Assembly: GCF_031882575.1 (NCBI RefSeq)
Contig: NZ_CP134772.1
Coordinates: 4,972,501-5,036,500, forward strand
Origin: Pseudomonas sp. VD-NE ins
GTDB lineage: Bacteria; Pseudomonadota; Gammaproteobacteria; Pseudomonadales; Pseudomonadaceae
Length of the DNA stretch: 64,000 bases
Direction: 5' to 3'
Part shown: piece by piece, positions 10,690 through 43,278 of the stretch
Layout of the letters: each line of letters starts with the position of its first letter
How positions within the stretch are numbered: the first letter of the stretch is position 1
Made by a program: the position numbers and the translations under genes
Notes under the pieces: generated by a model
Told to the model about the DNA's origin: nothing
Seen by the model: the letters and a program-made list of their open reading frames with translations, nothing else
Databases searched by the model: none

Positions 10690-10890
10690 GAACCTGGCCT
10701 CAAGTCAGCAGGGGAAATCCCTTTACGAAGTTGAATTACTGCGGTCATCGCGCGGATTAATCAAGCCTTGCGCAAGGAAAAGCCGTTTCGAACCGCCAGA
10801 AAATTCGATGGCAATCATCAGAAAGGCGCAATGCACAGAGCCACAATCTGTGTTAAAAACGCTGCGCCGCCCGAGAAAGGGCGGCAAAAA

Positions 10891-11055
10891 CGTTCTCAGG
10901 GCGGGGTGCAATTCCCCACCGGCGGTAATTGCGCGCAATGCGCATAGCCCGCGAGCGCTTGGCGACGAACACGGCAAAAGCTGTGATCGCGGCAAGGTCA
11001 GCAGACCCGGTGTGATTCCGGGGCCGACGGTCATAGTCCGGATGAAGAGAGAACG
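10891..11055 (+). ncRNA. FMN riboswitch (RFN element)
   Basis: The sequence has the hallmark RFN blocks. The closing stem is formed by CGTTCTC and GAGAACG. Conserved segments are CAGGGCGGGGTGCAATTCCC, CACCGGCGGTAATT, AGCCCGCGAGCG, GGTCAGCAGACCCGGTGTGA and TTCCGGGGCCGACGGTCATAGTCCGGATG (the last two read with short gaps between blocks). It lies 105 bp upstream of the lumazine synthase gene and should shut down its expression when FMN binds. Confidence 0.95.
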
Positions 11056-11129
11056 GGATTAACGCCAAAGGGCCGTCCGCGCGATGTTGTGCGTGTGCGC
11101 ACCCTTGAATCCCTTTCGATTCATAACGC

Positions 11130-19833: not shown

Positions 19834-19992
19834 AATAGCGTCGCAAAGGCGCAGTTTAACTGGCGCCGCCGATTTGCGGCAGGCCGCAGAGAATACCAAC
19901 TCAACCTCGCTGCAAAGCTATAAATATGTACCGCACCTCGATCCGCACTTGCTGATTTGCTTGGCATCTTCAATGGCCCAAGGATCGACACC

Positions 19993-22900
19993 ATGCAGCA
20001 AGCTGACGGATTGCCCTCCAGCGACTCCACCGATACAGACTCTCCACAGAACCCCGACAGTCATTATCAGCCCCTCAGAGACCGCCTCCCCGACTGGCTG
20101 GGCAGCGCTTCAGAAACCCGGCGTCTGGCACTCACAAATATCACACCGCAACGCTCGAGCAATCTGCACACGGCACCGGCGGCTCAGCACGAAGCACTGA
20201 ACGACCTCAACATCGCTCACTGGAACGCGCAAAGCGCGGTCGACCGAAGCCTGGAACACCTGCAGGACGCCAGCGCCTTTGCCGAACCGCTGCTCAGGCA
20301 AGCACTGAAGAAGGACTTCGATCTGGATGTGGATGTGCGCAATACTTTCGTGCGCCTGTACATCCCCGCGACCACGCCGTGGTTCCCGATCAGGACCGGC
20401 ACGCGCGCCTGGACCGTCTCGCTGCTGGATGCTGCGTTGCATAACTTCGAAGAAAAGGAGACGGACGAAAACGCCTTCGAACCCGACTCCACCTTCATTA
20501 CCCGGCCCTCCGTCACCGGCCAGTTCATGACCTTGCCGTGGATCAAGGCCAAATTGAGCATTGCAGCCTTCACCAGGCTGTGCCGAACACTGGATATCGG
20601 TGCGCAGTACAAAACCCGTCTCGAAGAAAACCTCGGTTACACCGATCCGATGGTGGCGTCCGTCCTGCGCCTGAAAATAGACACCAGCCAGAAAGCCGCA
20701 ATGAAAGCGGCCCTGCAGTGGGCGCGGATGAACCGCGATGTTTCGGAAAGTTATTTTCGCTTGATCGACGCCGTGCTCGACGGCATGAAAGGCCTGTATG
20801 TCGGCGGCGCACCCGTTCTGTGCCATGACATGGGCATGCTGTGTGCGCCGCTCACCGGCATCGTCGTGTTTGCCCCCGACCTGTACATTTCGCGAACCGC
20901 TGCGCGCGTAGTGGCTTACGTCCCGGACGACCCCGAGCACCCCTTCAAGGAGTACGCCACGACCTATGATCTGATCGTCGAACTGACACGCCAGTTACGC
21001 TCGAAGGATTACCAAGAGTTTTTCAGTCGCTTCGTGAACCACGAACATCGAGGGTTTTTCTTCAGCACACTCAACAGTCGCTTGAGCCAGCTGAAGTGGC
21101 ATCCGACCGAACCAGGCAGTTCTCTGCCGGCGTGGCGCGACACCCCTGTCGAGCGACCTGATCTGCAGACCACGCTCACGCCGTTTCAAGACAATCTGTG
21201 GCAACACTTCTATCAGGCGAAACTGAACAAGATCTTCAATGACGCCAGAGTGATCGCCGTGCCCACCGCGGTGGTCGATCAAAAAGCACGCTGGGCTTTC
21301 TGGGACTCCGTCACCAACATCATCTCGACCATCGTGCAGACCGCCGCGCTGATCGTCGCGCCGTTCGTGCCGGTACTCGGCGAAGCGATGATGGCGTACA
21401 TGGCTTATCAAATGCTCGACGAGGTCTTCGAGGGCATCATCGAATGGGGGCAAGGTCGCACTACCGAAGCCTTTGAACACTTGATGGGCACCCTGGAGTC
21501 GATGATTCAACTGGGCATGTTCGCGGTGGGCGGGGCGATTGGCGCCGGTGAATTTCGCAAGGTCCTGCCCAAAGAGATCGTCGCGTTCATCGACCGCTTC
21601 AAACCAGTGCAACTGGCCAATGGCAAAACCCGCTACTGGGATCCCGATCTGGCCCGTTACGAACACCCGGCTGTGCCTGACGCCAGCTCGACACCCAACG
21701 AGTTGGGCCTGCACCCGCACCAGGGCAAACAACTGCTGCCAATCGAAGACGCTCGTTTTGCCGTGAGCGAAAGCCCGGTTCCCGGCCAGTACCGTATTGA
21801 ACACCCGACCCGCGCCGACGCCTACCAACCGGTATTGCGCCACAACGGCGCCGGCGCCTGGCATACCGAACTGGAACAACCACTGGGATGGGACACCGAC
21901 ACCGCACTGCGGCGAATCGGCCCGGCAGTCGAGTCGTTTTCACCCGCCGAGCGCGAGACCATTCTTCAGGTCAGCGGCGTCAACGAAGATGCCGTGCGCA
22001 AGATGCACGCCGACCAGCAAACACCTCCCCCGCTGCTGGCCGACAGCATCCAGCGCTTCAAGATCGATCAGGAGCTGCAACGCCTGGTCGATCGGCTCGA
22101 GAGTGACGTGGCCGACGAATATCGCCGCGCCGATCCCGTAGCCCAACTGCAACTGTTGACCGAGCACGGGCGCTGGCCGAGTAACCAACGCCTGCGTCTG
22201 GTTGATCGACAGGGCGAACTGATCTGGCAATCTTCGGCAGACGAAACCTTGCCGCTGACCGAGCTGGATCAAAGCAGCCTGATCGGTGACGACCTGCTCA
22301 AGACCCTGCTGTATTCGCTCGACGAGCAACAAACCAAAGCCTTGCTCGCAGAACCCTTCGGCGGGCCGACACCTTCGCTGGACGTGCGCAGCCAAACCCT
22401 GCGCAAGCAATTGGCTCATCTCGCCCGACGACACAGAAGTTCCCTGTTCGAAGCGCGCTATCAGGCACTCCAGTCCATCGATGATCCGCTGGCACGACAG
22501 CTGAGCCAACACCCACCGGCATTACCCGCCAGCGTGACCCGCGAACTGCTCGACACCGCCAGTGGCGAAGAACTGCTGCAGATCAGCGCGGGACAATTGC
22601 CACCGCGCCAACAGGAGCTCATGCAACTGGCCAGCCAGGAAGTGCGCATCACCCGCGCTTATGAGGGTCTGGAACTGAACGCCGTGAACAATCCCGATTC
22701 CGACGCTCTTGCGCTGCACAGCCTCAAGCTGTTGCCAGGCTGGAGCGGCGATGTGCGCATCGAGATTCGCGACGGACATTACGAAGGGGCTGCGCTCGAC
22801 AGCATCGGGCGCGAAGATGCCCCCGCGCAAAAAGTCCTGGTTCGCCAGCCTGACGGCCGCTATCAACCTTTTGATGACCGCGGCCAGGAATTGCATTCGT

Positions 22901-25900
22901 CCACGGACTTCTACTCCAGCCTGTTGTACGCGCTGCCGGATGGCGAGCGTCAGAGCCTGAACCTGCAGATCGGCCAGGGTGCTGCGCTGAAAGCGGCAAT
23001 TCGCGAGCGAACACTGGAGCGTAACGCTTTGCGCACAGTGATGTTCGACACACCGATTCGCCAGCCTGCCGTGGACACACTGCGCCTGGCAGGTTTGGGA
23101 GATGAGCAGCCGAACCTATCAAGACGCCTTGAAGATGCGAACTTTTTTGAAGCGGGCGAACTGGGCGCAATCAGCATAGAGAACCAGGACTTTCTGACCA
23201 CCACGGGCCGGCCGATCACCAGCCCCGAAGCGCGCGTGCAAGCGCTCTATCGAGGCATGTCCACCGAAGAAGCGCAAAACTTTGTCGCCGCGTTCCGCAA
23301 TGATCCGGGAGCGTTCAACGCCGAACTGGCCAGGGGTCGCAACGAATACGCCAGACTCAGCGATGACTTGAGCCGCTGGGAGCACGACGTCCCCACCCAT
23401 CACCCAGCGACCGGCCAGCCATTGAGTTACATCGAACGCCGTGCAGCCCAGCAGAATCGTGCGTTGTTCAGGGACGCGGTGCTGCGTTGCTGGCGTCGGG
23501 AAACCCGCGGCCCCGCCGGGCATATGTTGCAGATTGCGCAACCGGTATTGGGTGACCTGCCCGCGCTGGAAGCAGATTTCAGCCACGTCCACATGCTGTC
23601 CATCAATGGCAGCGCCAGCACCGGGGCCGTGGACGCCTTCATGCAACGTTTTCCGAGCCTGAGGTATCTGGATGCACAAAATCTCGATATGCCAAGCCTG
23701 CCCCCGTCCGTTGCTGCAATGCCCAATCTGCGCCAATTGATCTTGCGCAATTGTGGTATCAAGCACTCGGCTGCCAACCAGCAAGTGCTGACATCCTTGC
23801 CCAATCTCTCGTTACTGGATTTGCGGGGCAATCCATTGGGCACGCCTCCCGACATCAGCGCGATGGCCCGGTTACGCTACCTCAATCTGTCGAACACGGG
23901 CATCTCCACGCCGCCCGCCAATGTGCTCGATCATCCGCATCTGATCGTCGGCAATTTCGAAGGCAACCATCTGACGGAAATACCGGAACCCTTTTTCAAC
24001 CTGGCCAGTTCCCTCAGTGACGGTTTCGGTTTCGCCGACAACCCGCTGTCGACCGCCACACGCGAGAAGCTGAAAACGTTCTATGAGCAAACCGGCAAAC
24101 ACTTTGGGGTCGGCGCGGAGCCAGCGGATGTTCTGCGCACCACAACGTTGTTTCCTGCCCTGAGTGCCGAGCAGGCCAGTGAGTTGCTTTATCGACTTCC
24201 AGGCACATGGAGCGAAAGCCTGACCCAGCTCGCCCGTTGGGAAAACGAGTTCACCACGCTACAGATCGAGCTCGGCGAATGGGTCAACCAGATTCCTGCA
24301 CTCGACCCCGTGTTCCAAAGGCCATTGACGCTCAATGAGCAAACGCTGGAACGCGAGGCGAGGCGCGTGTTCAGTCAAAAGCTGGAACAGTTCTGGCGCT
24401 CCAGAACATTCACTGGCAGAGAGTCCGAACTGACCGCAACGCTTGGTTTCATGGGTGACCTGCCGGCACTCAGCGCCAACTTCGACCACGTCTCGCGACT
24501 GACGCTGATGGGCAATAAAACCGTCACGGCAACCCTGCCATTCCTCCAGCGCTTTACCAATCTGACCACGCTGGAGATGCACGCCTTTGACCTGGAACCG
24601 ATTACGCTGTCACAGATCAGGCAGCCTCACCTGCGTGTATTGGAGCTCAACGACTGCGGTGTCGTATTGACCCCGGAGAACGAGGCCACACTGCTTTCTC
24701 TCAACAACCTGCACAGACTGGATTTGAGCAACAACCCCTTGGGGACTTTTCCCGATCTGAACCTTCTCCCCGAACTGACTCACCTCGACCTGTCCAATTG
24801 CGGCATCACCGCAGTGCCCGATGGGGTGGCCAGCCACCCGAATCTGGACACGGCCATTTTCAACGGTAACCGCATCACCGAAATACCCGATGAGCTATTC
24901 GAGCTGTCGGGCGATCTGAGTGACAGCCTGGATTTCTCTGAAAACCCGCTGTCGCTTGCCACACGCAACAAGATCAAGACCTTTTTCCGACGTACCGGTT
25001 ACGATTTTGCGGTGCGCGCCGAAAACACCGACATCGCCCTCACACGACAACTGTTCCCGGCCCTGGACGAGCAACAGGCCAGCGATCTGATCTACGACTT
25101 GCCCGGAACAATCACGGACAGTCGTACGCAGCTCGTGGCATGGCGGGCGGAACTCAATCAAATGACAGCGAACCTGAACTCTTGGGCAACACAGGTTCCA
25201 AGCGTACATCCCGTGACTGGAGAGGTCCTCACGCCGATCGAGGTGTTTGATCAGTTCGCGGCGCGGTCCGAGTTCGGACAACTGCTGGAGCGGTTCTGGC
25301 GCTACAGAAATGGCGAGTCAGGCATGCGCGCGGACTTTCTCGAAGCCGACGCGAAGTTTTTCGGTGACTTCCCCCAACTGACAACCGACTTCAGTCATGT
25401 TTCAACGGTGAAGCTCAAGGGCAACGCTGCCATTGGTGCTCCGGACGGGTTCATCAATCTGTTCACCAATGCACGTGAACTGGCGCTGCGACAGTTTCCA
25501 CTGGGTGAAATCCCCCAGACCGTGACTCAACTGTCCAACCTGACGGAACTCACGCTGAGCGACTGTGGCGTGACACTCACCCCCGCCGATCAGAGCACAC
25601 TCGCCACACTCAACGGCCTTGAACTTCTGGATCTGAGCGACAACCCACTGACGGTAGCACCTGACCTTCAGTCGCTACCGGCCATGCGTGACATCCTGCT
25701 GTCCAATACCGGCATTACGTCGCTGCCAAATGGCCTCGCCACTCACCCGAGCCTGAAAAACGCCCTGCTGAACGGCAACCGCATCACTAACCTGCCCGAG
25801 GCTTTTTTCAGCCTCGATCTGGACCTCGCCGATGGCGTCAGTCTGGCCAGCAACCCGTTGTCCCTGGCCGCTCGCGAACGCATCAAAACCTACTACGTCG

Positions 25901-27813
25901 AGCACGGGCGCCTGTTTGACGTCATGCCGGACGTCGGTGACCTGGCCAGCGCGCAAAGGCTGTATCCGTGGATGGACATCGATGACGCCAGTCACATGAT
26001 CTATCACCTGCCCGGCACACTGCAGGCCGGCACCGATCAACTGGTGCGCTGGGAAGCGGAGATCAGCCAGATGATCAGCGATCTGAGCGCCTGGTCCGAA
26101 CGCGTGCCCGTGCGCAATCCTTCGACAGGCGAACACTGGGACGCTGTAGAACGAACGACAGAACAACTCAGGAGAAAGCGGTTCAGTCAGCAACTTGAGC
26201 AGTTCTGGCGCGCCAGAACCGTCGACAGGCCGGAACTGCGACTCAACACGCTGGAAATCGAGGCGCCTCTCGCCGGTGAGTTACCGACGCTGACGGCCGA
26301 CTTCAATCACGTCATCCGCTTGTCCATCCAGGGTAATCCGGCCTTGAATGCTCCGGATGGGTTTCTCGCACGCTTCGGCGGATTGCAGTCTCTGGAGATG
26401 CGCAATTTCGCCCTGCGCCGGTTCCCCTCGGCACTGACAGCCATGCCGGGTCTCGAAACGCTGACGTTGAGCCGTTGCGGTGTTGAATTCGATGCGGCGG
26501 GACAAGCGACGCTTTCCACGCTGACGCGACTGAAAGAACTGGATCTTTACGGCAATCCCTTGGGCACCGCACCGGATATCCGCACCTTGCCAGCGCTGAC
26601 GACCCTGGACCTCACACGCACAGGGATCAGTCAGATTCCCGTCGGCGTTGGGCAATCGCTGCGGCTGCGTGATGCCTTCCTCGGCGAAAACGCGATCGTG
26701 GAGTTGCCGGAAGACTTGCGAGGCCTTTCCGCCAATGGCGTCGTCCTGAGAGCCAATCCGCTCTCCGCTGCGTCAAGAGAACGCATAAAGATCTTTTCCC
26801 GGGACTCTTATCAGTACCTGGGCGTTACGGCCGACCCGGAGGAAATTGCCTTGGTACGAGCACTGTACCCCGCCATCAGCGAAGTAGAAGCCAACCGCCT
26901 GATCTATCGTCTGCCCGGTACATTGGCCGATGGCCATAGCGAATTGCTGCGGCGCCATAACAACCTCACCACGCTGCTCGGCGAGCTCGATGTGTGGGTG
27001 AGAGAAACGCCACGAGACCCGCTCACGGGCACCGAGCTGGAGGGCGAAGCGCTACGCCTGGAAAATGCCCGGCGCATGGGCTTCAGGGATAACCTGGAAG
27101 GAGAGTTACGCAAGGCGCCAAGGTATCTTCCGTCCACTGAGGTTACGCTCGACCTGTCTTTAAACGGCGAGCTGCCGGCACTGAGCGGACGTTTCGAGCA
27201 AATCAGAGAATTGACGCTGACGAGCACCGCCAATGTACCGCCTCGAGTTGACCGACTGCTTGAGCTGTTCCCGAACCTGGAGGAACTGAATATCAAGGGC
27301 TATCCACTCAACGAAATTCCCCTGGCGGTTTTCGACATGAACCAGCTGACCGACCTGAGATTGCCGCGCTGTCGCATCGTCCTGACTGAGCAAACCGTGA
27401 ACGCACTGGCAGCCATGAAAAACCTGGAAGGACTGGACTTGAGTCACAACCCGCTGGACCGGGCACCCGACCTGAGAAACCTGCAGAAGTGTCAGACGCT
27501 GCGCTTGAACAACACCGGACTGACCGACGTCCCGACCGGCCTGTTTGGCATGCAACGATTGACGTACGCAGACCTTTCGGAAAACGCCATCGCCGAACTC
27601 CCTGACCCACTGCCTGCTCCCGGTGACGACAGGCCGGTGACCTACAACTTCAGTGAAAATCCATTGACCCCCCGGAGTCAGCGCAGCCTGGCGACGTACA
27701 ACGCGGCAAATGACCTACGACTGCTCGAGGAGCGCAGGAGGATGGACGAAATACACAGAGCGCTCGAAGACTTCGAGGATTCAGATTTTTCCAACGGTGA
27801 AGAACAACCATAA
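19993..27813 (+). CDS. giant leucine-rich-repeat, dermonecrotic-toxin-like protein (2606 aa)
   Basis: ATG 19993 is chosen because AAGGA lies eight bases upstream; an in-frame TTG at 19957 has no such site. Residues 1 to about 1080 resemble the N-terminal part of large Pseudomonas proteins called dermonecrotic toxin/DUF6543, with a hydrophobic stretch at about 433-520 (VQTAALIVAPFVPVLGEAMM) that may insert in membranes. From about residue 1085 five modules of some 301 residues follow. Each has a helical part (LYPAISEVEANRLIYRLPGT-like, then a WxRxxP-type segment) and a short LRR block (LxxLDLSxNPLGTxPDLxxLPxLTxLDLSNxGIxxVP). The tail (about 2570-2606) is charged. Relatives often end in a NEL ubiquitin-ligase domain; none is visible here. 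Role in host or competitor interaction is inferred. Confidence 0.85.
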   Translation: MQQADGLPSSDSTDTDSPQNPDSHYQPLRDRLPDWLGSASETRRLALTNITPQRSSNLHTAPAAQHEALNDLNIAHWNAQSAVDRSLEHLQDASAFAEPLLRQALKKDFDLDVDVRNTFVRLYIPATTPWFPIRTGTRAWTVSLLDAALHNFEEKETDENAFEPDSTFITRPSVTGQFMTLPWIKAKLSIAAFTRLCRTLDIGAQYKTRLEENLGYTDPMVASVLRLKIDTSQKAAMKAALQWARMNRDVSESYFRLIDAVLDGMKGLYVGGAPVLCHDMGMLCAPLTGIVVFAPDLYISRTAARVVAYVPDDPEHPFKEYATTYDLIVELTRQLRSKDYQEFFSRFVNHEHRGFFFSTLNSRLSQLKWHPTEPGSSLPAWRDTPVERPDLQTTLTPFQDNLWQHFYQAKLNKIFNDARVIAVPTAVVDQKARWAFWDSVTNIISTIVQTAALIVAPFVPVLGEAMMAYMAYQMLDEVFEGIIEWGQGRTTEAFEHLMGTLESMIQLGMFAVGGAIGAGEFRKVLPKEIVAFIDRFKPVQLANGKTRYWDPDLARYEHPAVPDASSTPNELGLHPHQGKQLLPIEDARFAVSESPVPGQYRIEHPTRADAYQPVLRHNGAGAWHTELEQPLGWDTDTALRRIGPAVESFSPAERETILQVSGVNEDAVRKMHADQQTPPPLLADSIQRFKIDQELQRLVDRLESDVADEYRRADPVAQLQLLTEHGRWPSNQRLRLVDRQGELIWQSSADETLPLTELDQSSLIGDDLLKTLLYSLDEQQTKALLAEPFGGPTPSLDVRSQTLRKQLAHLARRHRSSLFEARYQALQSIDDPLARQLSQHPPALPASVTRELLDTASGEELLQISAGQLPPRQQELMQLASQEVRITRAYEGLELNAVNNPDSDALALHSLKLLPGWSGDVRIEIRDGHYEGAALDSIGREDAPAQKVLVRQPDGRYQPFDDRGQELHSSTDFYSSLLYALPDGERQSLNLQIGQGAALKAAIRERTLERNALRTVMFDTPIRQPAVDTLRLAGLGDEQPNLSRRLEDANFFEAGELGAISIENQDFLTTTGRPITSPEARVQALYRGMSTEEAQNFVAAFRNDPGAFNAELARGRNEYARLSDDLSRWEHDVPTHHPATGQPLSYIERRAAQQNRALFRDAVLRCWRRETRGPAGHMLQIAQPVLGDLPALEADFSHVHMLSINGSASTGAVDAFMQRFPSLRYLDAQNLDMPSLPPSVAAMPNLRQLILRNCGIKHSAANQQVLTSLPNLSLLDLRGNPLGTPPDISAMARLRYLNLSNTGISTPPANVLDHPHLIVGNFEGNHLTEIPEPFFNLASSLSDGFGFADNPLSTATREKLKTFYEQTGKHFGVGAEPADVLRTTTLFPALSAEQASELLYRLPGTWSESLTQLARWENEFTTLQIELGEWVNQIPALDPVFQRPLTLNEQTLEREARRVFSQKLEQFWRSRTFTGRESELTATLGFMGDLPALSANFDHVSRLTLMGNKTVTATLPFLQRFTNLTTLEMHAFDLEPITLSQIRQPHLRVLELNDCGVVLTPENEATLLSLNNLHRLDLSNNPLGTFPDLNLLPELTHLDLSNCGITAVPDGVASHPNLDTAIFNGNRITEIPDELFELSGDLSDSLDFSENPLSLATRNKIKTFFRRTGYDFAVRAENTDIALTRQLFPALDEQQASDLIYDLPGTITDSRTQLVAWRAELNQMTANLNSWATQVPSVHPVTGEVLTPIEVFDQFAARSEFGQLLERFWRYRNGESGMRADFLEADAKFFGDFPQLTTDFSHVSTVKLKGNAAIGAPDGFINLFTNARELALRQFPLGEIPQTVTQLSNLTELTLSDCGVTLTPADQSTLATLNGLELLDLSDNPLTVAPDLQSLPAMRDILLSNTGITSLPNGLATHPSLKNALLNGNRITNLPEAFFSLDLDLADGVSLASNPLSLAARERIKTYYVEHGRLFDVMPDVGDLASAQRLYPWMDIDDASHMIYHLPGTLQAGTDQLVRWEAEISQMISDLSAWSERVPVRNPSTGEHWDAVERTTEQLRRKRFSQQLEQFWRARTVDRPELRLNTLEIEAPLAGELPTLTADFNHVIRLSIQGNPALNAPDGFLARFGGLQSLEMRNFALRRFPSALTAMPGLETLTLSRCGVEFDAAGQATLSTLTRLKELDLYGNPLGTAPDIRTLPALTTLDLTRTGISQIPVGVGQSLRLRDAFLGENAIVELPEDLRGLSANGVVLRANPLSAASRERIKIFSRDSYQYLGVTADPEEIALVRALYPAISEVEANRLIYRLPGTLADGHSELLRRHNNLTTLLGELDVWVRETPRDPLTGTELEGEALRLENARRMGFRDNLEGELRKAPRYLPSTEVTLDLSLNGELPALSGRFEQIRELTLTSTANVPPRVDRLLELFPNLEELNIKGYPLNEIPLAVFDMNQLTDLRLPRCRIVLTEQTVNALAAMKNLEGLDLSHNPLDRAPDLRNLQKCQTLRLNNTGLTDVPTGLFGMQRLTYADLSENAIAELPDPLPAPGDDRPVTYNFSENPLTPRSQRSLATYNAANDLRLLEERRRMDEIHRALEDFEDSDFSNGEEQP

Positions 27814-42198: not shown

Positions 42199-42518
42199 TA
42201 GCCCGCAAAACTTCAAAGTAAATGAAATTTCCTGGATTCCGTGAGATGAGTCATGGCTACACGGATGTGGGAGCTGCGGGGTTCGATGGCGACCAAAGGC
42301 TGGATATAAACACAGCATAATTTACTCCGCATCTTTGTCCAGGTTTCCTTTCGCCTCAGGACCAGTAGGAAAAGTCGCTGGTTGACGACCATCCCTGATG
42401 CCCCTACCCTCAGCTCCGAGCCTAAGAAACTCTAAAAACCAGAGCGGTTCTCCGCACCCGACAGTCATGCGGCTTTTTTTCGTCTGCGGTTTCTCTACGT
42501 CTGCGAAAAATCCCGTTA
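42199..42518. other. region between dcm and the C4-like RNA
   Basis: No gene is supported in these 320 bp. The right part (42398-42518) is structured. It includes CCTAAGAAACTCTAAAAACC and then AGAG at 42421-42444, which resembles the downstream antisense target, and a GCGGCTTTTTTT run ending near 42480 that could be a terminator. The promoter of the C4-like RNA should lie here. Confidence 0.4.
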
Positions 42519-42596
42519 TGTCGGGAGTGGGCGAATACAAGACCCGAAAGGGGAATATGTCCGGCCCGTCTCTGGTGGGTTTCTTAGCTCCCGACA
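42519..42596 (+). ncRNA. candidate C4-type antisense RNA
   Basis: TGTCGGGAG (42519-42527) and CTCCCGACA (42588-42596) close a 9-bp stem around inner hairpins, one being CCC-GAAA-GGG at 42543-42552. Between them CTCTGG (42570-42575) and TTTCTTAG (42580-42587) are complementary to CCAGAG (42623-42628) and CTAAGAAA (42611-42618). The order is collinear and both spacers are four bases, so this is an antisense-target pair. The position ahead of a leader ORF and an antirepressor-like gene matches the c4 RNA of phages P1/P7, which blocks leader translation and thus the antirepressor. Confidence 0.7.
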
Positions 42597-42632
42597 CCCT
42601 AACGAATGCCCTAAGAAAGCAGCCAGAGGTAA

Positions 42633-42731
42633 ATGGAAATGCCTGGATATCAAACCTTCATGATGAAGGTGAATCGCTGTACCCGCCGTTCGAATCCCGT
42701 GCTTCCAGGTCAGGAGGCATACCATGTCTGA
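42633..42731 (+). CDS. 32-codon leader ORF coupled to the BRO-N gene (icd-like)
   Basis: ATG 42633 is preceded by AGAGGT at 42625-42630, part of which is the predicted C4 target. The frame reads MEMPGYQTFMMKVNRCTRRS and 12 more residues, and its TGA at 42729-42731 overlaps the first eight bases of the BRO-N gene. This layout fits translational coupling, as for icd and ant in P1: when the RNA blocks the leader, the downstream gene is not translated. The peptide itself has no recognised function. Confidence 0.6.
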   Translation: MEMPGYQTFMMKVNRCTRRSNPVLPGQEAYHV

Positions 42732-43233
42732 ACCACTTCTCCCGACTCGTTTCATACGCAACAAAACCCACCTGCACGCCCTTCTGGTTGAGAACCAAGC
42801 GTGGTTCTGTGTCCATGAACTGGGCCGGTTGATGGGCAAACATCTTGATGAGCGCCAATTGCGTAAACTCGACGCTGATCAGCAGCAGATGATGCGCGTG
42901 GAGATCTATGGCGAAGCTGAGGACCACATGATGGTGAGTGAGTCCGGCGTATATGCGCTACTGATCTATCACTACTGTCCTGAGCATCGGCAGCTTCGTG
43001 AGTGGCTGACGCATCAGGTTGTGCCTGCTCTGCGTGATGCTCGTAAGGCGCGCTCGGTTGAGCGTCCGACGTTGAGTGTTTTGAGTTGGCCGCGAATGTC
43101 GTTGAGTACGTTGCACTGGCAGGACGAGCCGTGGATTCGGTTGCGGGATATGCCTTGTTTGTTGGCGGAGGATCCGTTCAATCGGCAGGAATCCTGGTGG
43201 CGTAGAGCTTCGCGATTGTTGCGTGGTTGCTGA
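42724..43233 (+). CDS. BRO-N domain antirepressor-like protein
   Basis: The 169-residue protein carries a BRO-N-like domain (about 8-105: FIRNKTHLHALLVENQAWFCVHELGRLM, then VSESGVYALLIYHYCPEHRQLREWLTHQVVPALR), the DNA-binding domain of prophage antirepressors. The C-terminal 60 residues are not recognised. AGGAGG lies seven bases before the ATG, inside the leader ORF. No other phage genes are near, so it is either a remnant or a domesticated regulator. Its target repressor is unknown. Confidence 0.82.
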   Translation: MSEPLLPTRFIRNKTHLHALLVENQAWFCVHELGRLMGKHLDERQLRKLDADQQQMMRVEIYGEAEDHMMVSESGVYALLIYHYCPEHRQLREWLTHQVVPALRDARKARSVERPTLSVLSWPRMSLSTLHWQDEPWIRLRDMPCLLAEDPFNRQESWWRRASRLLRGC

Positions 43234-43243
43234 GGGTTTCAAG

Positions 43244-43278
43244 ATCCGCTGTTTGAGGTTCAAGCAGCGGATTTTTTG
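43244..43278 (+). terminator. terminator of the BRO-N gene
   Basis: ATCCGCTG and CAGCGGAT form an 8-bp stem with a 13-base loop followed by TTTTT, 10 bp after the stop codon. Confidence 0.8.

Follow-up and report, generated by a model that had tools for sequence, protein, structure and literature searches.

A probable C4-type antisense gate, built on an sRNA-Xcc1 family RNA, upstream of a BRO-N gene in Pseudomonas

We analysed a 64,000-nucleotide stretch of the chromosome of Pseudomonas sp. VD-NE ins (contig NZ_CP134772.1, positions 4,972,501 to 5,036,500 of the forward strand; hereafter the window), in which a structured RNA near position 42,520 is followed by a short leader open reading frame (ORF) and a gene for a BRO-N domain protein. 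This locus is very probably a self-contained antisense gate of the C4 type, built on an RNA of the sRNA-Xcc1 family, that silences a domesticated, antirepressor-like BRO-N regulator. A first-pass annotation of the same DNA had proposed that it follows the c4-icd-ant logic of phages P1 and P7. Our results support that logic (antisense RNA, target on the Shine-Dalgarno sequence of a small leader ORF, overlap of that ORF with an antirepressor-type gene) and extend it by an a1/b1-like target copy upstream of the RNA. The locus consists of the following features.

42382..42410, + strand: candidate promoter TTGACG-17-TACCCT (from sequence)
42418..42432, + strand: possible small hairpin presenting upstream target a1 (CTAAGAAA, 42422-42429) (by eye)
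42439..42447, + strand: upstream target b1 (CCAGAG, 42439) plus CGG (coupled with the RNA loop across loci)
42452..42481, + strand: terminator-like hairpin CCGCA...TGCGG with a T-run, an attenuator or the end of a short leader RNA (alignment of 56 leaders)
42520..42603, + strand: sRNA-Xcc1 family antisense RNA (RF02221)
42570-42575, + strand: b', CTCTGG, in the P3 loop region of the RNA
42580-42587, + strand: a', TTTCTTAG, in the RNA
42611..42618, + strand: downstream target a2, CTAAGAAA (from sequence and comparative coupling)
42623..42629, + strand: downstream target b2, CCAGAG (42623-42628), overlapping the Shine-Dalgarno sequence AGAGG (comparative coupling)
42633..42731, + strand: leader ORF of 32 codons (from sequence)
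42724..43233, + strand: BRO-N domain protein of 169 amino acids, antirepressor-like (Pfam Bro-N, 5.2e-8)
43244..43277, + strand: terminator-like inverted repeat with a T-run after BRO-N (by inspection)

Family membership of the RNA

The covariance model of RF02221 (sRNA-Xcc1) matched the RNA at 42520-42603 on the + strand with 69.0 bits against a gathering score of 53, which places it within that family, and this was the single RF02221 match in the host genome at E≤0.001. The outer stem of 9 base pairs is formed by 42519-42527 and 42588-42596. The C4 antisense RNA of the c4-icd-ant operon of P1 and P7 corresponds to Rfam RF01695 and RF03163, and our comparison covers P1. A search with the Rfam C4 model (RF01695), suggested as a check in the first-pass annotation, gave no match to the window RNA even at E≤10 and none to 11 RF02221 relatives at E≤0.5, and RF02221 did not match P1. 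Membership of the RNA in Rfam C4 was therefore rejected. The earlier description of a C4-type antisense RNA appears largely right as to how the RNA would work, and its family is sRNA-Xcc1. In Rfam, C4 and c4-a1b1 share a clan, and sRNA-Xcc1 is assigned to no clan.

At E≤0.001, RF02221 occurred in 56 of 249 genomes of the window's genus, and in 58 of 398, 26 of 369 and 13 of 194 genomes of samples at the phylum, class and order level, respectively; the four samples overlap slightly. A total of 151 loci were oriented: every one of the 61 genus-sample matches and some of those from the other samples (L074 duplicates L036). Among RF02221 RNAs the second inner hairpin has a hypervariable loop, whose reverse complement recurs at two places, upstream of the RNA and in front of the start codon downstream of it. 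Two genomes carry nine (G527) and five (G637) RF02221 matches, and their loops differ among those fetched, which suggests several parallel codes inside one cell.

Coupling of the RNA with its two target sites

The elements named in the first-pass annotation were all present: CTCTGG and TTTCTTAG inside the structured RNA, CTAAGAAA and then CCAGAG downstream in collinear antisense order with four-base spacers, the second of these on the Shine-Dalgarno sequence of the 32-codon ORF, and an overlap between the stop of that ORF and the start of BRO-N, which measures 8 bases. On the + strand of the window, CTAAGAAA with CCAGAG no more than 25 bases after it occurs twice, at 42422/42439 and at 42611/42623, and the upstream copy was missing from that annotation. 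The RNA segment 42567-42590 gave a duplex energy of −23.5 kcal/mol with the downstream site, reached by 8 of 500 mononucleotide shuffles, and of −29.7 kcal/mol with the upstream site, reached by none of 500. Judged on the window sequence alone, the downstream pairing is moderately beyond chance, and swap tests on relatives secure it.

In these swap tests, 118 distinct RNAs with full flanks were compared with their own flanks and with the flanks of other loci. Pairing of b' with its own flanks stood out with z values of 14.5 downstream and 10.9 upstream, and that of a' with 7.7 and 15.5, respectively. We then defined a three-way match as exact identity between the reverse complement of an RNA segment (the variable P3), an upstream word and a downstream word. 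Such matches of at least 7 bases were found for 49 of the 118 RNAs with their own flanks versus 1.1% after the RNAs had been swapped, and at 6 bases or more there were 51 distinct cores. When swaps within the window's genus were made solely between loci with different cores, the figures were 13 of 28 versus 2.5%. Shared ancestry survives swapping, yet ancestry alone gives an RNA no better match to its own flanks than to those of a relative, and the coupling is seen with many different codes. Conservation of the two complementary segments in relatives, which had been set out as a check, is strongly borne out. Cumulatively, these results argue for the following: 1) a segment of the RNA probably pairs with a site on the Shine-Dalgarno sequence of the downstream ORF, as in C4-type systems; and 2) a second, putative target copy (a1/b1) lies upstream, as such systems also have.

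sRNA-Xcc1 is reportedly, going by the title of a 2011 report by Chen, a trans-acting RNA carried on an integron, a transposon and a plasmid. A regulator acting in trans on many chromosomal genes, for which the neighbouring complementarity would be secondary, would suit the many trans targets predicted in the available portions of papers on Xanthomonas and Xylella (PMC2996969, PMC12189769). We consider this very unlikely for the family studied here: the variable segment follows the two sites beside it, through many different cores and in two sets of loci, which is unexpected for a regulator of conserved genes.

The second of these sets was independent and viral, and consisted of IMG/VR contigs carrying one of two exact patterns (at least 156 hits on at least 153 contigs; 110 distinct hits were tested). 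Among the matches listed, a three-way match of at least 7 bases was found in 70 of 110 with their own flanks versus 1.9% after swapping. The viral loci also bear on the idea that the chromosomal RNA confers trans immunity to phages that carry the same code in their ant leader, as has been proposed for C4 copies in Acinetobacter (PMC5320573, in the excerpts available). With four cores tried against the 156 hits listed, five viral hits matched loop and site, and none had the a' arm of the window, so that trans immunity seems improbable in this case. A search for codes common to the window's genus and the viral contigs likewise found none with both arms among the matches listed.

The leader ORF and BRO-N in Pseudomonas

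The BRO-N protein of the window also matched the PHROG family anti-repressor Ant (1.5e-8). Against 50,697 phage records it gave 159 matches, all below 60% identity, with 25-30% identity in the 20 matches listed. In the genus sample, the RNA is followed by a BRO match in each of the 59 loci L001-L059; in the two others (L060 and L061), where the RNA scores under the gathering score, a different protein follows. We examined how the targeted Shine-Dalgarno sequence is connected to BRO-N in 60 BRO loci. In 41 of them the leader ORF is separate, 21-35 codons long, and either ends just short of the BRO-N start or overlaps it, and in another 14 it is in frame with BRO-N (the version in L050 stops after 50 codons); the rest have a shorter ORF ending before BRO-N (2), another arrangement (1) or no ORF by our rule (2). 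The Shine-Dalgarno sequence targeted by the antisense RNA thus leads to BRO-N in 55 of 60 loci, an arrangement that would be compatible with translational coupling. By inspection, a second ATG at 42639 in the window has better Shine-Dalgarno spacing and is the likely leader start.

In Pseudomonas relatives the module often lies 3' of nrdB and beside defence genes, and encodes a compact BRO-N protein. No phage genes were seen around the chromosomal module in the window, in agreement with the earlier remark that a surrounding prophage is lacking. Because phages often carry BRO-N and RF02221 RNAs, the module might be taken for a decayed, functionless prophage remnant, and there are broken or partial copies: L366 has a partial BRO match, that of L363 begins at residue 8 directly after the end of nrdB, and the ORF behind the target in L050 is the one cut short as described above. 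Decay of this kind is extremely improbable as a general account, given the BRO match in 59 of 59 loci, the presence of the RNA in 56 of 249 genomes of the genus, the co-variation of loops and targets, and a leader arrangement retained in 55 of 60 loci.

The slot of the module, with fixed flanks and variable defence cargo, resembles the core defence hotspots of P. aeruginosa, among which symE is frequent in cDHS1 (PMC10250203, available text). The slot described here lies 3' of nrdB and in other species, and the main text of that paper, as far as it was available, contains neither 'nrd' nor 'antirepressor'. Our literature search found no paper in which nrdB, hotspot, Pseudomonas and restriction-modification occur together.

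Genes behind the RNA in other bacteria and phages

The genes behind the RNA were surveyed with 81 downstream ORFs, namely that of the window and 80 chosen by rule from loci L053-L147, and with 92 ORFs from the viral set, where our rule yielded no ORF for 20 of 112 distinct loci; a single protein can be counted under more than one family. The bacterial ORFs matched Pfam Bro-N (16), SymE (10), Rha (5), P22_AR_N (3), KilA-N (2) and AntA (1). The viral ones, among the matches listed, matched Bro-N (15), Rha (13), KilA-N (13), P22_AR_C (12), AntA (9), P22_AR_N (8) and ORF6N (6), and none matched SymE. Named temperate phages also have RF02221 RNAs, each at a distance of 34-39 bases from the gene that follows: ant in Haemophilus Aaphi23 (86.1 bits) and Rac-SA53 (78.1 bits), a KilA-N gene in Acinetobacter 4316 (79.7 bits), and a hypothetical gene in Moraxella Mcat15 (71.0 bits).

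In Xanthomonas integrons sRNA-Xcc1 sits upstream of symE, and "a divergent regulatory mechanism" was suggested for it in 2025 (PMC12444791, available part). Small ORFs that look SymE-like by eye follow the same arrangement of RNA and targets in L090, L092, L115, L116 and L130. By eye, these five loci may carry a C4-like gate on the toxin in place of SymR. The window locus itself does not fit a type I SymE/SymR system, in that BRO-N, not SymE, lies downstream.

Proposed mechanism and comparison with known systems

The annotation of the P1 record gives the order a1, b1, C4, a2, b2, icd, ant1. P1 and the window locus have in common a1 b1, a terminator-like repeat, the RNA, a2 b2, a small ORF and an antirepressor, and P1 C4 and RF02221 RNAs share an outer stem and two inner hairpins, with b' in the second and a' before the closing arm. 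Unlike C4, the RNA studied here has an AUACAA/GAAU internal loop in the first inner hairpin, and its module is chromosomal.

We propose that a single transcript would start near 42417, from one promoter, and that its first product would be a short leader carrying a1/b1 and mostly ending at the terminator at 42480. Read-through transcripts would hold the antisense RNA, which would be freed by processing; this step is proposed because C4 precursors are cleaved by RNase P, according to the accessible part of PMC5320573. The P3 loop (b') and the strand following it (a') would pair with the Shine-Dalgarno sequence of the leader ORF, and this pairing would block translation of the leader and, via the 8-base overlap, of BRO-N too. 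The upstream a1/b1 copy might serve as a decoy titrating the antisense RNA or as a sensor by attenuation. The decoy role is suggested because in Salmonella Gifsy-1 the isrK-orf45-anrP read-through transcript, and with it anrP, is reportedly switched on by short IsrK RNA (PMC4825925, text available in part).

As for the hairpin between the upstream copy and the RNA, both-sided changes occur in 2 of 4 pairs of its stem at 42452-42481 among 56 aligned leaders. If it were a true attenuator, binding of the RNA to a1/b1 and the adjoining GCGG would free CCGC for the terminator, and the operon would be shut at both transcription and translation. The upstream element of P1 runs b1, GCGG, CCGC, GCGG and a T-run, the same GCGG-CCGC-GCGG triple occurs in 65 of 85 parseable RF02221 leaders, and in the window the upstream duplex is the stronger one. 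The triple is missing from the other 20 leaders, and some clades changed both terminator arms (GC to AU) while GCGG stayed, which indicates that such an antiterminator is not general. We regard attenuation as a real but rather doubtful possibility.

The IsrK-orf45-anrP system shares with the window locus a short terminated leader, a small ORF and an antirepressor, and read-through yields its mRNA; the text of that paper, where available, mentions neither 'C4 RNA' nor 'C4-like' (PMC4825925). The Rfam isrK model overlaps the P1 leader under its cut-off (35.1 of 50 bits) and gave no match at E≤0.5 in 11 RF02221 loci. A partial literature search, which leaves absence unproven, found no C4-like mechanism proposed for sRNA-Xcc1 in print; 'C4 antisense' was mentioned with it once, as separate Rfam hits, and 'antirepressor' never.

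Weighing the antisense gate, and BRO-N loci without the RNA

Several results weigh against the C4-type gate. The pairing of b' in the window is short, with 6 Watson-Crick pairs plus a G-U pair. In the four swap tests, own flanks were the best or tied for best among the 118 in just 9, 4, 5 and 16 cases; many pairing codes are shared or similar between loci. The three-way match reached 4 bases or fewer in 40 of 118 RNAs and 5 bases in 15. In some loci the tested segment extends into the a' strand, and several cores, viral ones foremost, resemble a' words. With the segment cut back to exclude more of that strand, three-way matches were found in 26 of 118 versus 0.6% after swapping, and in 55 or 54 of 110 viral loci versus 1.0% or 0.9% (among the matches listed). 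A still shorter genomic cut, which loses part of the window's loop, left no RNA of the 118 with a 7-base match and 2 with a match of 6. Among the downstream ORFs, at least 44 of 81 match no antirepressor or SymE family, and the rule perhaps chose the wrong ORF in some. As to kinship with P1, the Rfam models of C4 and RF02221 do not cross-match either way, and a hit of leader model R1, built from 56 RF02221 leaders, to a1/b1 of P1 was rejected as proof of common descent: it scored 22.3 bits, less than a false positive in a coding sequence of the window at 24.0 bits. That false positive lies in an ORF of 2618 amino acids at 19957-27813 of the window, leucine-rich-repeat-like by eye.

The last such result comes from 80 named BRO-N homologues, kept of 102 found and all titled Pseudomonas. 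The RNA core pattern lies within 420 bases upstream in 41 and is absent from 39, and an Rfam scan of 14 of these 39 gave a single locus with RF02221 (L349) and no other family at E≤0.05; BRO-N thus does not need such an RNA everywhere. In 29 of the 39, CCTAAGAAAC (an a1-like box) is followed by CTCTAYGT and then by ACGTAGAGG on the Shine-Dalgarno sequence, before the leader ORF (for example L356, L360, L367, L369, L373, L378, L389 and L403, at bases 1740-2000, in the set L328-L407). No Rfam family matched this leader at E≤0.05 in the 13 scanned. When L369 was folded, a segment containing CTAAGAAA paired with a later strand and a second hairpin closed the Shine-Dalgarno sequence, at −60.8 kcal/mol for this one sequence, with no shuffle control. 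Taken together, the boxes in 29 of 39 loci and the predicted fold of L369 make it seem that a different, unnamed structured leader gates the same site in BRO-N loci that lack sRNA-Xcc1. Neither the RNA nor this leader was found in L363 and L366, which have partial BRO matches.

A wider reading of the family

Beyond the locus, we tentatively suggest, at somewhat short of even confidence, that sRNA-Xcc1 RNAs as a whole form a second lineage of C4-type cis-antisense switches, distinct in sequence and with dozens of different codes. The family would gate antirepressors in temperate phages and SymE toxins in integrons and islands. In Pseudomonas it would have been domesticated to control a defence hotspot from within, and BRO-N, once released, could switch the anti-phage genes next to it; in half of the copies there, the unnamed structured leader would have replaced the RNA on the same Shine-Dalgarno sequence. 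This family-wide assignment is the more interesting result, compared with the single locus. The arrangement recurs in many phages and bacteria and offers a candidate mechanism where the RNA family has so far been mainly a name. An RNA so far treated as a trans-acting sRNA gains a testable mechanism in cis with a readable code, and many natural pairs of antisense and target with different codes are supplied. The reading also links phage immunity RNAs with SymE toxins and with a chromosomal regulator beside defence genes.

Minor features

Model R1 matched 42405-42485, the window's leader having been among its training sequences. TTGAC stands at roughly the same distance before a1 in 20 of the 26 loci printed, the window's among them. 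The candidate promoter and both terminator-like repeats went uncalled in a simple consensus scan of the + strand, and the hairpin presenting a1 is absent from the consensus fold of the 56 leaders. In the window (42457-42463) and in relatives the terminator loop often contains CTCCCGA or CCCGACA, words with complementarity to the outer stem's 5' arm; by eye, and in collinear order, this might be a possible third contact. Elsewhere in the window, an FMN riboswitch was matched at 10888-11058 with 108.2 bits.
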